Shown here: one piece after another, positions 2,312 through 29,100 of the stretch
Layout of the letters: each line of letters starts with the position of its first letter
Numbering within the stretch: position 1 is the first letter of the stretch
Assembly (NCBI GenBank): GCA_001821555.1
Contig: MHMM01000007.1
Location: 1 to 44,753 of the forward strand
Origin: Candidatus Nealsonbacteria bacterium RIFOXYB1_FULL_40_15
GTDB lineage: Bacteria; Patescibacteriota; Minisyncoccia; Minisyncoccales; GWA2-38-27
Length of the DNA stretch: 44,753 nucleotides
Direction of reading: 5' to 3'
The notes under the pieces: model-generated
Databases searched by the model: none
What the model was told of the DNA's origin: nothing
The model's input: only the letters and a program-made list of their open reading frames with translations
Translations under genes and position numbers: made by a program

Positions 2312-2386
2312 GGCGTGGTAGCCAAGTGGTAAGGCAACAGTCTGCAAAACTGTTATACGTGGGTTCAATTCCCACCCACGCCTCCA
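2312..2386 (+). tRNA. tRNA-Cys (GCA), CCA encoded
   Basis: Cloverleaf GGCGTGG...CCACGCC; anticodon loop CTGCAAA; TTCAATT T-loop. Confidence 0.95.
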
Positions 2387-2389
2387 GGA

Positions 2390-2472
2390 GCCCAGGTGGC
2401 GGAACGGTATACGCACAACACTTAAAATGTTGCGGGAGCAATCCCATGTGGGTTCGAGTCCCACCTTGGGCA
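2390..2472 (+). tRNA. tRNA-Leu (UAA)
   Basis: GCCCAGG/CTTGGGC acceptor; anticodon TAA; long variable arm; TTCGAGT T-loop. Confidence 0.94.
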
Positions 2473-2480
2473 CAAAGCAA

Positions 2481-2505
2481 AAACCGCCTTTCTAGGGCGG
2501 TTTTG
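2481..2505. terminator. Bidirectional Rho-independent terminator
   Basis: AAAACCGCC-tttcta-GGGCGGTTTT hairpin. Confidence 0.75.
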
Positions 2506-2506
2506 C

Positions 2507-3025
2507 TTAATCTTCAAGTATTTCTAGATATGTCCTTTTTACTCCGAAATTCTTAGCTTGTTCGTAGGCAGGAAACCATATATCAAAGTGATGGTTTCCT
2601 TTTCTGGCATTCATCCTGTCTTCAACCACAAATACCTTTTCTCCGTAAAGTTCGGGTATTCTTACTAGGGTTCCGAAGGGAAGCATGTTGTTGGCTATGA
2701 TTCCGTCTTCAACCCATTTCCCTGAAGCAGTGATAAAAGGAGTGCTGTCTGTCTGCCACACCGTGCTTGAATAGCCGGTAATAACCACGTTGACCTTTTT
2801 TACATTCAAAGGTTCAAAGGGTTTGGCTACGGGCATTACCGTGTTGTTTTGTGTAACAGGAAGGGATTCAAGGGTATCCTTTTCTGTCTCCCCTTCTCTT
2901 ATTACTCCTGATATTTCCACGGCAGCAACGCTAAGAATTCCAAAGAATAAAATAGCGACAAAGGATATAGAAAACACCTTTTTTACGAACAGATAAGATT
3001 CTTCTTTTTCAATATGTATGTTCAT
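2507..3025 (-). CDS. 3D (Asp-Asp-Asp) domain exported or membrane protein
   Basis: N-terminal TM segment; VVITGYSST...FITASGKWVEDGIIANN...VVEDRMNAR...FDIWF, 3D-domain pattern. Confidence 0.8.
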   Translation of the reverse strand: MNIHIEKEESYLFVKKVFSISFVAILFFGILSVAAVEISGVIREGETEKDTLESLPVTQNNTVMPVAKPFEPLNVKKVNVVITGYSSTVWQTDSTPFITASGKWVEDGIIANNMLPFGTLVRIPELYGEKVFVVEDRMNARKGNHHFDIWFPAYEQAKNFGVKRTYLEILED

Positions 3026-3061
3026 GGTAATAAAAAATCCCCTTGTCTGGGGTATAGCTGT

Positions 3062-3090
3062 ATTCTAGCATATTTTAAGGCCAAAGTCAA
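3062..3090 (-). promoter_or_regulatory. sigma70-type promoter for the 3D-domain gene
   Basis: Minus strand TTGACT-N17-TAGAAT, followed by CCCCagacaaGGGGATTTTTT in the leader. Confidence 0.6.
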
Positions 3091-3112
3091 TATACCGCGG
3101 GCAAAATCATGG

Positions 3113-3184
3113 AGCGGGAGACGGGATTCGCACCCGCGATCTTCTCGTTGGCAACGAGACATTCTACTGCTGAACTACTCCCGC
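3113..3184 (-). tRNA. tRNA-Gly (GCC)
   Basis: GCGGGAG...CTCCCGC cloverleaf; anticodon loop with GCC; CCA encoded at 3110-3112. Confidence 0.95.
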
Positions 3185-3271
3185 CTTTGGTCCGCCGAAG
3201 CGAACCTACGGCGAGGCAATGCCCGCAATAAGATTCGCGAAGGCGATATTTAACAATACAATCCTTGCGTG

Positions 3272-3344
3272 TGCCTCGGGTCAGACTTGCACTGACTACC
3301 TCAGCTTTTTCAGAGCTGCGCTCTACTACATGAGCTACCGAGGC
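3272..3344 (-). tRNA. tRNA-Phe (GAA)
   Basis: GCCTCGG...CCGAGGC acceptor; loop CTGAAAA. Confidence 0.93.
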
Positions 3345-3372
3345 AATATATTAAATTATATCAGAATAGGTG

Positions 3373-3446
3373 TGGGCGGTGAAGGACTCGAACCCTCGGC
3401 CTCCGCAGTGTAAATGCGGCGCTCTAACCAGCTGAGCTAACCGCCC
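3373..3446 (-). tRNA. tRNA-Val (UAC)
   Basis: GGGCGGT...ACCGCCC acceptor; loop TTTACAC. Confidence 0.95.
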
Positions 3447-3477
3447 CCAAAAAGGCCTATGGCAGAAAACCCGCATG

Positions 3478-3559
3478 TGCGGACGGTGGGACTTGAACCC
3501 ACATGCCCGTAAGGGCACAGCTCCTCAAGCTGCTGCGTCTACCATTGCGCCACGTCCGC
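3478..3559 (-). tRNA. tRNA-Leu (GAG)
   Basis: GCGGACG...CGTCCGC acceptor; loop TTGAGGA; long variable arm. Confidence 0.93.
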
Positions 3560-3979
3560 CTATTTCTCCTCTTCGGAAAGCTTTTCTGAAGATTCTTCGG
3601 CCTTCTTGGCTTCCCATGTAAGGCCCTCAAACTCCTTTCTTTTAAGCCTGGATTTTCTGCCTTTTGCAGTTCTCAAATAATAGAGCTTAGCCCTTCTGAC
3701 CTTGCTTCTTTTGACAACCTCTATTTTTTCTATAAGGGGAGAGTGCACAGGGAAAATCTTTTCCACTCCTACCCCGGAGGATATCCTTCTTACTGTAATA
3801 GTGGAGGATATGCCCTTTCCGTGCTTTCTCGCCAAAACAACCCCCTCAAAGGGCTGGAGTCTTTCTTTGTCTTTTTCTTTTATTTTCTGGAAAACCTTGA
3901 CAGTGTCTCCGGGCATTATGCTTGGGATCCCCTGCTTCAACTGCCCTGAAGTAAATGTTTCTATTGTTTTGGAAGACAT
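3560..3979 (-). CDS. rplS: 50S ribosomal protein L19
   Basis: [30 protein letters not shown]...RRAKLYYLR. Confidence 0.95.
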
Positions 3980-4626
3980 ATTTTTAATTCCTCGGGCAGT
4001 TCTGATTTGAATTCTCTATACTTCCCGTCAGGAAACTTTAATTTTATATAACTTGCGTGCAAAAAGTGTCTTTTCAGATTATCCGGGCAAGGCTGGTTTT
4101 TAAATCCATAAACCTTATCCCCCACTATGGGATGACCTATGTATGCCAGATGGCATCTTATCTGGTGTTTTCTTCCTGTTTTAGGATGAACTTCAAGCAA
4201 AGTATAATTTTCATATTCTTGAATCACTTTGTATTCTGTAACAGCTTCCCTTCTGCTTGAAGGCCCCGGCTCAAAAGGAAGATAAGCTCTTTGCTTCTTG
4301 CCATCCTTGGGAGATCTTCCTATGGGAACATTTATCGTCCCTTCTTCTTCTTTAAAGCGACCTGTCGCCAAAGCTATATAGCTTTTAACTACACTCCTAG
4401 TTTTAAACTGTTTTTGAAAAAAAATCAAGGCCTCGCCGGTCTTTGCAAGAACAAGAAGGCCCGATGTATCTTTGTCCAATCTATGCACGATCCCCTTCCT
4501 TTCAACTTCATTTAGCTCGGGGCGTAATTTTGAAAGCTCCTCTCCTAAAGTTATAACATCTATTCCCGCCGGTTTGTCTATAACAATAGAATCTTTATCT
4601 TCGTATAACACTTCTATTTTGTCCAT
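3961..4626 (-). CDS. RluA-family pseudouridine synthase
   Basis: [19 protein letters not shown]; start moved to [10 protein letters not shown] because the longer ORF runs into the upstream tRNA. Confidence 0.92.
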
Positions 4627-4631
4627 ATCTG

Positions 4632-4703
4632 TGGGCTCAGTAGGAATCGAACCTACGGTCTCGTCGATGTCGACGACGCATTTTACCATTAAACTATGAG
4701 CCC
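4632..4703 (-). tRNA. tRNA-Val (GAC) with C at position 33
   Basis: GGGCTCA...TGAGCCC acceptor; GTAGG-TTCGATT-CCTAC T-arm; anticodon arm CGTCG-TCGACAT-CGACG. Confidence 0.85.
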
Positions 4704-5386
4704 GCGTCGACTATTTTCTTGCAAAAATAACGGCTTAAAAATAATAGTCTCCTTTGAACGGCAACATTTCCGCACCGGAGAACACAAACTCCTTTATATG
4801 AGGGATATGTTCTCGACCCAATGGTCCTTTTATCAAACATCGCTCTTCTGAAGCTGATCAAGGGAATATTTAATTCTTTTGCCCAAAATTTTTTTGTCTC
4901 TTCGGGATTCTGATCTGCCCTAAGGTGTAATTCGCAATATATTCGACCAATATCAATATTGTAAATTTTTTTTAAGCTTGATAAAAAAAATCTTAATATC
5001 AACGGATCAGAACTCCCGATAGCTGTCTGGTCTGTTGTCTTGCCTCCTTCACTAATATACAGAACAGATAAAGCAAGCTCAAGAATATGCTTATCTTCTA
5101 TATTTATATTATTCAGCACATTAAGGGCTTGGCACTCAGCCTCTTCAATTCTTTTTTGTTTTTGTTTATTGTGCCAAATAACAGCTTTCTTCCGAGCTTC
5201 AACTAGTGCATTTTTTGAATTTTTAAGTAACTTTTTTCTTTGGCTAGGAGTAAGTTTAACTTTTTTAAACCACCCACTAAGCGTTGACCGAGCAATCCCA
5301 AGCTTTTTCTCAATTTTACTCATTGAATAACCTTGCTTTCTCAGTCGAATCGCTGCCTCTTTGAACTCGAACCACTTAGACTTCAT
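4694..5386 (-). CDS. HTH plus LAGLIDADG-like (homing-endonuclease-fold) protein
   Basis: N-terminal HTH (MSKIEKKLGIARSTLSGWFKKVKL); LSVLYISEGGKTT...IGSSDPLILRFFLSSLKKIYNID...FWAKELNIP; stop codon lies inside the tRNA-Val gene. Confidence 0.6.
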   Translation of the reverse strand: MKSKWFEFKEAAIRLRKQGYSMSKIEKKLGIARSTLSGWFKKVKLTPSQRKKLLKNSKNALVEARKKAVIWHNKQKQKRIEEAECQALNVLNNINIEDKHILELALSVLYISEGGKTTDQTAIGSSDPLILRFFLSSLKKIYNIDIGRIYCELHLRADQNPEETKKFWAKELNIPLISFRRAMFDKRTIGSRTYPSYKGVCVLRCGNVAVQRRLLFLSRYFCKKIVDAGS

Positions 5387-5574
5387 ATACCTATTATATA
5401 CTCAGTAATACGAATTGCAAAGAAGCTATTTGCCCAAACAGATTATTACACATCTTATAGTACATTAAAAACAAATTATTTTCAATCTACTATTATTTAA
5501 ATATCTTATATTCTAAAAAAATTATCACCCCAAGGAAAAATCCGCAAACCGAGATAAGAATATCTTTTATGTGG

Positions 5575-5647
5575 TGCGCCTGGATGGATTCGAACCATCG
5601 ACCCCTGCTTTATAAGAGCAGTGCTACTACCACTGAGCTACAGGCGC
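5575..5647 (-). tRNA. tRNA-Ile (UAU)
   Basis: GCGCCTG...CAGGCGC acceptor; CTGCT-CTTATAA-AGCAG anticodon arm; GATGG-TTCGAAT-CCATC T-arm; CCA encoded at 5572-5574. Confidence 0.92.
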
Positions 5648-9032: not shown

Positions 9033-9053
9033 TTTGATATATTTCCGAAAAAT

Positions 9054-9135
9054 AATATTTGCAAGACCCTGCGAACGCGACGGCGTAAGCACGAGGAATT
9101 TTTCAGCAGAAAAATATCTGTGTCTAGCAAATATT
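9054..9135 (+). repeat. Structured intergenic repeat element, copy 1
   Basis: Terminal arms aatatttgcAagac/gtctAgcaaatatt plus internal ATTTTTC-agca-GAAAAAT hairpin; homologous to 27042-27121. Confidence 0.8.
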
Positions 9136-9160
9136 TATTTGAGGAATATTATATTTTAGC

Positions 9161-26976: not shown

Positions 26977-27041
26977 AATTATTAAATCTATATTAGAATA
27001 AACATATAATATTGTAAATATAAAAATTCGGCAAAATAAAC

Positions 27042-27121
27042 AATTTTGCAGGACCCTGCGATCGCGGCAGCGGGAGCACGAGGAATTTTTTAGCAGAAAA
27101 ATATCCGTGTCCAGCAAAATT
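27042..27121 (+). repeat. Structured intergenic repeat element, copy 2
   Basis: Arms aattttgcAggac/gtccAgcaaaatt plus ATTTTTT-agca-GAAAAAT hairpin; homologous to 9054-9135. Confidence 0.8.
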
Positions 27122-27144
27122 CGTTTGTTGAGCAAGAATTTTCT

Positions 27145-29100
27145 ATGGCTGAAAGAAAATTCAAAAGAGAAATATACGGACAGAAAAAAAGGATGATTTT
27201 TAGAATCCTAATTTTTGTTTCTTTAGGATTCTTTTTAACAGCCCTCTTAGGATCGGCTGTTTTTCTTTATTACGCCAAAGACCTCCCAAGGCCCGAAAAA
27301 TTCACCGAAAGAGAGTTTGTAGAATCAACTAAAATATATGATAGAACAGGCCAAATCCTTCTTTATGAAATGTTCTCGGAAGAAAAAAGGGAGATAGTGC
27401 CGCTCTCGGAAATTTCTGATTACCTCAAGAAAGCTGTTATATCTACTGAAGACGCAAAGTTCTATTCCCATAATGGAATAGATTTTACCGGAATTTTAAG
27501 GGCCTTCAAGTTGAATTGGAACAGGGGAGATCTTTCTTACGGGGGATCCACTATCTCCCAACAGTTGATCAGATCTACCTTTTTGTCTACTCAAAAAACA
27601 GCTGAAAGGAAAACTAGAGAAATAATACTTACCTTGGAGCTGGAAAGAAAATATGGAAAAGACCAGATACTTGAATGGTATTTGAATCAGATCCCTTTGG
27701 GAATAAATATATATGGAGCAGAGTCGGCCTCAAAAACATATTTTAATAAAAGAGCTAAGGATCTCACTTTGGCAGAATCAGCTTTACTGGCGGCGGTTAT
27801 AAAAATGCCAAGCCACTATTCTCCTTTCGGGAAACATCTTGATCAGCTTTTGGCCAGAAAAGATTATGTCCTGGATAGAATGGCCCAGGAAAATTATATA
27901 ACAAAAGACGAAGCCGAAGAAGCAAAAAAAGAGGACCTTAAGTTTGCCCAATTTGCAAATACAATAAAAGCTCCACATTTTGTTTTGGAAGTTCAGGACT
28001 ACCTTATAAAAACATACGGGGAAACTTCTTTGAGGGAGGGGGGGTTCAAAGTCTATACCACCCTTGATTGGGAAATGCAGGAAGAGGCCGAAAAAGTCAT
28101 AACCGATAATATTGAAAGAATAAAAAAATATAAAGCATACAACACCTCTCTAGCCGCCCTTAGCCCGAAAACAGGAGAGATACTCGCTATGGTCGGCTCG
28201 TCGGACTGGTTTTCAAAATCCTATCCTGAAGGATGCATATCAGGAAAAGACTGCCTGTTTGAGCCAAAAGTAAACATCGCCACTTATGGAATAGGCAGGC
28301 AGCCCGGATCGGCTTTCAAGCCCTTTGCATACGTAACCGCTTTTCAAAAAGGCCATAAGGCAGAAGAAATAGTAGTTGATGAGTATACTGATTTCGGAGT
28401 ATGGGGCAATTCCCACTATACTCCGCAAAATTATGACGGTCTTTTTAGGGGGCCTGTTACATTAAGATCTGCCCTAGCCCAGTCCCTAAACATACCAGCC
28501 GTAAAAGTCCTCCTATATCTTGCCGGCCTAGAAGACACTCTAGAAACAGCAAAAAGAGCAGGACTGACAACCTTGGGCAATCCTGCTTCTTTCTACGGCC
28601 CCTCTATAGTGCTTGGAGGGGGAGAGGTAAAGCTTTTGGATATGGTTTCTGCTTATGGGGTATTTGCAAACGACGGGATAAAAGTTTCTCCCTCATATAT
28701 ATTGAAGATAGAGGATTCCAAAGGAAGAATAATAGAACAGAACAATAAAACTCCTAGAAGCATTTTGGACCAGCAGGCAGTGAGAATGCTTAACAGCGTC
28801 CTTTCAGATAATACGGCAAGAACTCCTATGTTCGGAGCAAATTCAAGCTTGTATATTCCAGGATGGCAAACAGCCGCAAAAACAGGAACAACAAACAGTT
28901 ATAGGGATGCCTGGGCGATAGGGTATACTCCCTCCATATGCGTGGGAGTTTGGGCAGGGAACAACGATAACACTCCCATGAGCGAAAAGTCATCTATTAC
29001 AATATCGGGTCCTATTTGGAAATCATTTATGTTAAAAATTCTACCGAAGTTCCCGAAAGAAGATTTCATTCTTCCCGAAGGATACGCAAATCCTGAATAA
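27145..29100 (+). CDS. Class A penicillin-binding protein (1A family)
   Basis: STEDAKFYSHNGIDFTGILRAF transglycosylase; RQPGSAFKPF, AQSLNIPAVK, AAKTGTTNSYRDAW. Confidence 0.97.
   Translation: MAERKFKREIYGQKKRMIFRILIFVSLGFFLTALLGSAVFLYYAKDLPRPEKFTEREFVESTKIYDRTGQILLYEMFSEEKREIVPLSEISDYLKKAVISTEDAKFYSHNGIDFTGILRAFKLNWNRGDLSYGGSTISQQLIRSTFLSTQKTAERKTREIILTLELERKYGKDQILEWYLNQIPLGINIYGAESASKTYFNKRAKDLTLAESALLAAVIKMPSHYSPFGKHLDQLLARKDYVLDRMAQENYITKDEAEEAKKEDLKFAQFANTIKAPHFVLEVQDYLIKTYGETSLREGGFKVYTTLDWEMQEEAEKVITDNIERIKKYKAYNTSLAALSPKTGEILAMVGSSDWFSKSYPEGCISGKDCLFEPKVNIATYGIGRQPGSAFKPFAYVTAFQKGHKAEEIVVDEYTDFGVWGNSHYTPQNYDGLFRGPVTLRSALAQSLNIPAVKVLLYLAGLEDTLETAKRAGLTTLGNPASFYGPSIVLGGGEVKLLDMVSAYGVFANDGIKVSPSYILKIEDSKGRIIEQNNKTPRSILDQQAVRMLNSVLSDNTARTPMFGANSSLYIPGWQTAAKTGTTNSYRDAWAIGYTPSICVGVWAGNNDNTPMSEKSSITISGPIWKSFMLKILPKFPKEDFILPEGYANPE

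Follow-up and report, generated by a model that had tools for sequence, protein, structure and literature searches.

Palindromes with a conserved two-hairpin core in Patescibacteria resemble the palindromic elements of Rickettsia

Two intergenic segments of about 80 nucleotides, similar in sequence and apparently able to fold, lie some 18 kb apart in a contig of Candidatus Nealsonbacteria bacterium RIFOXYB1_FULL_40_15 (MHMM01000007.1; the 44,753-nucleotide stretch analysed here is called the window). Their pairing raises the question of whether they are leaders of messages, small RNAs or copies of a dispersed element.

Fold of the two segments in the window

The preliminary description placed the two copies at 9054-9135 and 27042-27121, and the sequence reads exactly so. 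Both occupy divergent gaps, one between ruvA and uvrB and the other between tyrS and a penicillin-binding protein gene (neighbours assigned via Pfam), and the end of the second palindrome touches the start codon of the latter gene at 27145. The features are as follows.

9037-9154, plus strand: copy 1, full palindrome including an outer, locus-specific imperfect stem, in the ruvA/uvrB gap (from arm extension and fold)
9054-9067, plus strand: copy 1, 5' arm of the outer stem P1, AATATTTGC-A-AGAC
9068-9121, plus strand: copy 1, conserved core, which contains P2 and P3
9070-9091, plus strand: copy 1, hairpin P2, with TGC, a GA-type internal loop, a GCG stem and GCA (from sequence and pair counts)
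9095-9119, plus strand: copy 1, hairpin P3, GGAATTTTTC-AGCA-GAAAAATATCT, with one bulged A (from sequence and pair counts)
9122-9135, plus strand: copy 1, 3' arm of P1, GTCT-A-GCAAATATT
27020-27146, plus strand: copy 2, full palindrome including an outer imperfect stem, in the tyrS/penicillin-binding protein gap
27042-27054, plus strand: copy 2, 5' arm of P1, AATTTTGC-A-GGAC
27055-27108, plus strand: copy 2, conserved core
27057-27078, plus strand: copy 2, hairpin P2 (from sequence and pair counts)
27082-27106, plus strand: copy 2, hairpin P3, TTTTTT-AGCA-GAAAAA, with a U-G closing pair (from sequence and pair counts)
27109-27121, plus strand: copy 2, 3' arm of P1, GTCC-A-GCAAAATT

The P1 arms read as first described in both copies, with an A between the arm segments on each side, although weaker pairing continues outward beyond the ends originally given to them. 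The A-A mismatch that had been taken as a shared feature is present in both copies but is not fixed: it is one of the forms taken by a purine-rich internal loop that varies between copies, keeps a constant distance from the core and reads GA/GA, AA/AA, GA/AA or AG/CA in sister copies of the same genome. The double change from A-T to G-C between the copies (AGAC/GTCT versus GGAC/GTCC) was verified in the sequence, and both inner hairpins are real in each copy. When compared with dinucleotide shuffles, the folding z scores were −4.3 for copy 1 and −3.5 for copy 2 on the plus strand and −4.8 and −2.8 on the opposite strand; for each copy and either strand, none of 200 shuffles was as stable as the real fold. 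The same window holds eight tRNA genes inside 3.4 kb (2312-5647).

A family of palindromes in Patescibacteria

The preliminary description proposed a covariance-model search of this genome and of other Patescibacteria, and this search returned eight copies in the source genome and positive results in 37 of the 389 phylum members searched. Seven of the eight are clear copies found by DNA search and one is diverged and was found by the covariance model, so the two in the window are no chance pair. All eight are intergenic and most are no more than a few tens of bases away from a neighbouring gene, in gaps that are divergent, co-directional (for example fmt/efp and mraZ/rsmH, with gene names read from translations), operon-internal or just past a stop codon, and in either orientation to the neighbours. 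Thirteen other genomes of the same family gave no match to the element. Because gap types and orientations are mixed and these relatives are empty, a conserved regulatory leader is unlikely; a constant orientation upstream of related genes, kept in relatives, as a cis-regulatory 5'-UTR element would have, was not found among them. With about a quarter of the copies elsewhere lying in coding sequence, in both orientations, the earlier suggestion of a 5'-UTR element or small RNA was not supported, while the suggestion made beside it, a dispersed element of REP or MITE type, gained support.

The exact 30-base core pattern matched 57 stretches in GTDB genomes, and the titled groups among these matches are all Patescibacteria (Nomura-, Taylor-, Yonath-, Wildermuth-, Giovannoni-, Zambryski-, Moranii- and Paceibacterota). 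The distribution across the positive genomes is patchy, with from one to at least 11 copies in each, these counts being lower bounds, since no more than 11 candidates were scored in any genome. Genome G456, which is of the same class as the source genome, carries a cysteine desulfurase site identical to that of one Nomurabacteria record. No copy was found in phage, plasmid or viral collections, and Rfam gave no match over the element at either the gathering or a relaxed threshold. A literature search for palindromic insertions in Patescibacteria or Parcubacteria, which mostly did not reach subscription journals, retrieved no paper. The two matching segments are placed in an apparently undescribed palindrome family of Patescibacteria.

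An alignment of 54 copies gave one architecture, an outer stem P1 and the two hairpins P2 and P3. Changes on both sides were seen in 23 of 31 pairs, and double-change cells numbered 335 against 93 in shuffled alignments, a count reached by none of 500 shuffles. Paired cells amounted to 94.3% (74.5% in shuffles), and the covariation score was 0.524, compared with 0.144 ± 0.009 after shuffling and at most 0.133 when the partners were slid. This covariation check, which had been proposed together with the claim of a fold under selection, supports selection for or maintenance of the fold; of the two outcomes named in advance as refuting it, a family limited to two copies and homologues with broken pairing, neither was seen. 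By stem, both sides had changed in 14 of 14 pairs of P1, four of four of upper P2 and three of ten of P3. P2 has a loop of GNCG type and tandem mismatches of G.A type. In P3, one A bulges out of an A/T stem and the C-AGCA-G tip hardly varies; the conservation of P3 is overstated in this set, since the pattern search itself required part of its sequence; in diverged copies P3 does show double changes from A-T to T-A.

Among 145 parsed copies, most have a conserved core of 52-62 nt, and the median number of Watson-Crick pairs in P1 is 25. Fifteen P1 stems, each of 18-33 bp, are perfect, and many other arms are imperfect. The sequence of P1 is private to each copy, with only inner stretches common within a lineage, such as TTTGC in the source genome and AATAGTCTT/AAGAGCTATT in the genus g15. 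On the plus strand of the element, G.T mismatches outnumbered A.C mismatches 53:11 in intergenic copies, and 35:11 when related arms were removed (p = 5e-4). This excess fits folding of the plus strand, as RNA or as single-stranded DNA alike.

Copies inside genes and the corresponding empty sites

Of the 145 parsed copies, 34 lie in open reading frames as judged by a simple criterion, 23 in sense and 11 in antisense. The translations read through the insert in TsaD, PcrA/UvrD, PheT, MnmA, RsmE, cysteine desulfurase (IscS) and others, and Pfam recognised all six insert-bearing proteins that were checked. A stop interrupts the consensus core in one of the six frames, and the other five are open; in-gene copies keep the frame open across both core and arms and use both orientations and several frames. 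An AlphaFold model of a cysteine desulfurase with its insert, built on a shallow alignment, was unusable, with a mean pLDDT of 57 and low values at the insert.

We searched 40 genomes of one genus, in which the pcrA loop was readable in 13 relatives. The loop is empty in three of these, at 17-31 nt, and the filled loops mostly measure 97-141 nt, the exceptions being a loop of 208 nt that holds two hairpins and two more loops of greater length. At two intergenic sites (L133:16010 and L133:7777) the core and both arms are likewise missing in relatives. Because the empty relatives lack the core together with both arms, the insert is the whole palindrome and its arms are not copied flank; an origin of the arms as an inverted duplication of the flank was rejected on these grounds at several sites. 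The flanks of filled and empty sites are too diverged for calling a target-site duplication, and none was established. We also considered insertion into pre-existing hairpins, an idea suggested by the iscS loop, where AT-rich codons are complementary, and unsupported at the other sites.

The inserts of the pcrA loop are members of this family or unrelated palindromes, and most have private arms of considerable length; the cysteine desulfurase loop likewise holds varied palindromes. In tsaD, two genomes whose flanks are about 92% identical carry different palindromes at one place. The pcrA and cysteine desulfurase loops appear to be hot spots for the insertion of hairpins in general. As separate observations, a second palindrome family with the core GAAGGAGTGGTTGAGCGAAGCTCATCCCCGAGCGACTGA and private arms is present in G134 (C1:134724-134806, and the mnmA and ksgA/rsmA-like sites), at places where the related genome G367 carries the present element. 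Further unrelated palindromes fill the pcrA loop (L251, L261 and L266-L270) and the cysteine desulfurase loop (L182-L199), and one type in these gene loops reads CCCTCTCC..GGAGAGGG.

Orthologous in-gene inserts were compared over their first 20 pairs. In iscS (L050/L054) there were seven double changes, 13 unchanged pairs and none unpaired, and in mnmA six double changes, 13 unchanged and one unpaired. Other orthologous comparisons left four to eight of the 20 positions unpaired, so any correction between the arms is incomplete. That some long stems are perfect though unique suggests that one arm is corrected by the other. None of the arms of the nine parsed G134 copies recurs at full length elsewhere in that complete genome, and the idea that the arms are guides or spacers copied from elsewhere was discarded, as no match there exceeded 12-18 nt. 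Copying of whole palindromes within a genome was not seen directly; copies have only inner arm stretches in common.

Mobilisation and likeness to known elements

Taken together, each copy is probably a member of a family of non-autonomous palindromic mobile elements of Patescibacteria that behaves like the Rickettsia palindromic elements. The unit would be an entire palindrome, roughly 100-130 nt long, with the conserved P2 and P3 core held within a long P1 stem, and its insertion sites would be gaps between genes and those loops of conserved proteins that tolerate an insert. Copies in genes would survive there because the core is free of stops in five of six frames and the insert lengths preserve the reading frame. 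The mobilising enzyme would most likely recognise the conserved core on one folded strand. The private and often perfect P1 stays complementary while diverging, with both arms changing together in orthologous inserts; the likeliest cause would be that replication switches template at the hairpin and so corrects one arm from the other, and selection for a foldable strand may help, the present data separating neither from the other. Template switching has also been suggested for coding palindromes in Nematomorpha (PMC6649704).

No mobilising gene was found beside the copies and no carrier element was established. Reverse transcriptases showed no link to the copies, and TnpB/Cas12f-like proteins, present in 12 of 389 genomes, are too rare to matter. 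The best of the other readings takes the copies for REP-type elements moved on a single folded strand by a Y1 transposase (RAYT or IS200-IS605-like). REP elements and RAYT systems move as a folded single strand, and the fold of the present element shows strand asymmetry. A Y1 transposase seemed enriched in an initial set of 36 genomes, and within the class it was present in 11 of 15 positive and five of 19 negative genomes (p = 0.014, uncorrected for genome size or kinship). Across 389 genomes, however, 21 of 37 positive and 162 of 352 negative genomes carried one (p = 0.23), which is no significant association over the phylum. A REP/RAYT host has a Y1 gene, usually adjoining the copies, but G134 carries ten copies of the element without one, G228, G332 and G341 bear copies and also lack it, and among the places listed no Y1 gene directly adjoins a copy. 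The element is moreover three to five times the length of a REP, and we consider this explanation unlikely.

We give a rather poor chance to a functional structured RNA (a 5'-UTR element, a small RNA or a site for an RNA-protein contact) that is multi-copy by chance and whose fold is conserved by its function in the transcript. The strong covariation, the constant internal loops and the nearly invariant C-AGCA-G loop are what such an RNA would show, and the excess of G.T over A.C indicates one folding strand. The eight copies of the source genome, however, have no consistent orientation or neighbour gene, the rest of the family lacks the element, and copies lie within coding sequence on either strand. 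In antisense in-gene copies G.T also exceeds A.C (9:3, or 4:2 without related arms, too few for a test). It is very improbable that the in-gene copies are small introns, with an RNase III-like cut of the long stem and re-joining of the message: long and at times perfect stems do mark the insert edges and essential genes are hit, but the frame is open through core and arms, which would be needless were the insert removed, and many arms are imperfect.

The mobile palindromes favoured here are closest in kind to the Rickettsia palindromic elements (RPE), stem-loops of 105-146 bp in several families, with in-frame copies in conserved genes (PMC2229807, PMC10969869) and were described by Ogata 2000 and 2002, as cited in those two papers. 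The title of Ogata 2002, as cited in PMC10969869, calls protein-coding palindromes a unique feature of Rickettsia. RPE hosts include pheT, and insertion into solvent-exposed places and possible hot spots common to several families have been discussed (PMC3767692). RPE and the Wolbachia palindromic elements share with the present element a palindrome of about 100-150 bp, several families, and both intergenic and in-frame copies in conserved genes, pheT included. By size, copy number and its in-frame and intergenic copies, the element is, in kind, an RPE-like coding palindrome. The host phylum is different; whereas RPE have 12-bp terminal inverted repeats (PMC2229807), the copies here have a two-hairpin conserved core in a private stem with a median of 25 pairs, and, unlike RPE, they use both orientations and several frames.

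In the mitochondria of Nematomorpha, coding palindromes also have perfect, jointly evolving arms in coding genes and are seen as parasite-like (PMC6649704). No shared core or dispersed family is described there, and their arms encode conserved protein, whereas the arms in Patescibacteria are part of the insert. ERIC, Correia/NEMIS, RUP and other bacterial MITEs are alike in being small, non-autonomous and dispersed, with folded transcripts and some in-frame fusions, but they have shared terminal repeats, and ERIC, NEMIS and RUP also target-site duplications (PMC2229807). Terminal inverted repeats common to the copies, as in MITEs, were not found here, the arms being private, and no duplication was established. 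REP palindromes are dispersed as well, but they measure 20-40 bp and carry a conserved tag of the GTAG or CGTC superfamily (PMC3733652); we noticed no tag of this kind in the present element, whose link to Y1 is weak.

It is conceivable, though doubtful, that these palindromes form a mobile nucleic acid class of their own, apart from MITEs, REPs and RPEs, in which a conserved three-way-junction core is recognised on one folded strand, the stem is re-made or re-homogenised in each copy, and unrelated cores replace one another at in-gene hairpin hot spots of essential genes of Patescibacteria. The family would be a second, apparently independent and widespread case of protein-coding palindromes, after Rickettsia and then Wolbachia, in hosts that are small-genome Patescibacteria. 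Such a case would open comparative tests of how small palindromes spread, why essential enzymes tolerate them and why their arms change jointly. The in-frame inserts in tsaD, pcrA, pheT, mnmA and iscS should be masked in gene annotation and phylogenies of these bacteria.

A variant core was also observed (L107 2095-2152 and 5772-5829; L108 602-660; L109 3261-3318; L113 1922-2142), mostly without an enclosing stem and preceded by a hairpin of its own. In L108 and L113 it lies inside or beside tRNA genes, and in L107 within a repeat of about 260 bp that occurs in inverted orientation. About 100 nt downstream of the variant copy of L109 is a group I intron (3425-3701; Rfam RF00028, 86 bits), and in L113 two tandem variant cores stand in a tRNA array (1816-2300) with a duplicated 3' part of a tRNA between them.
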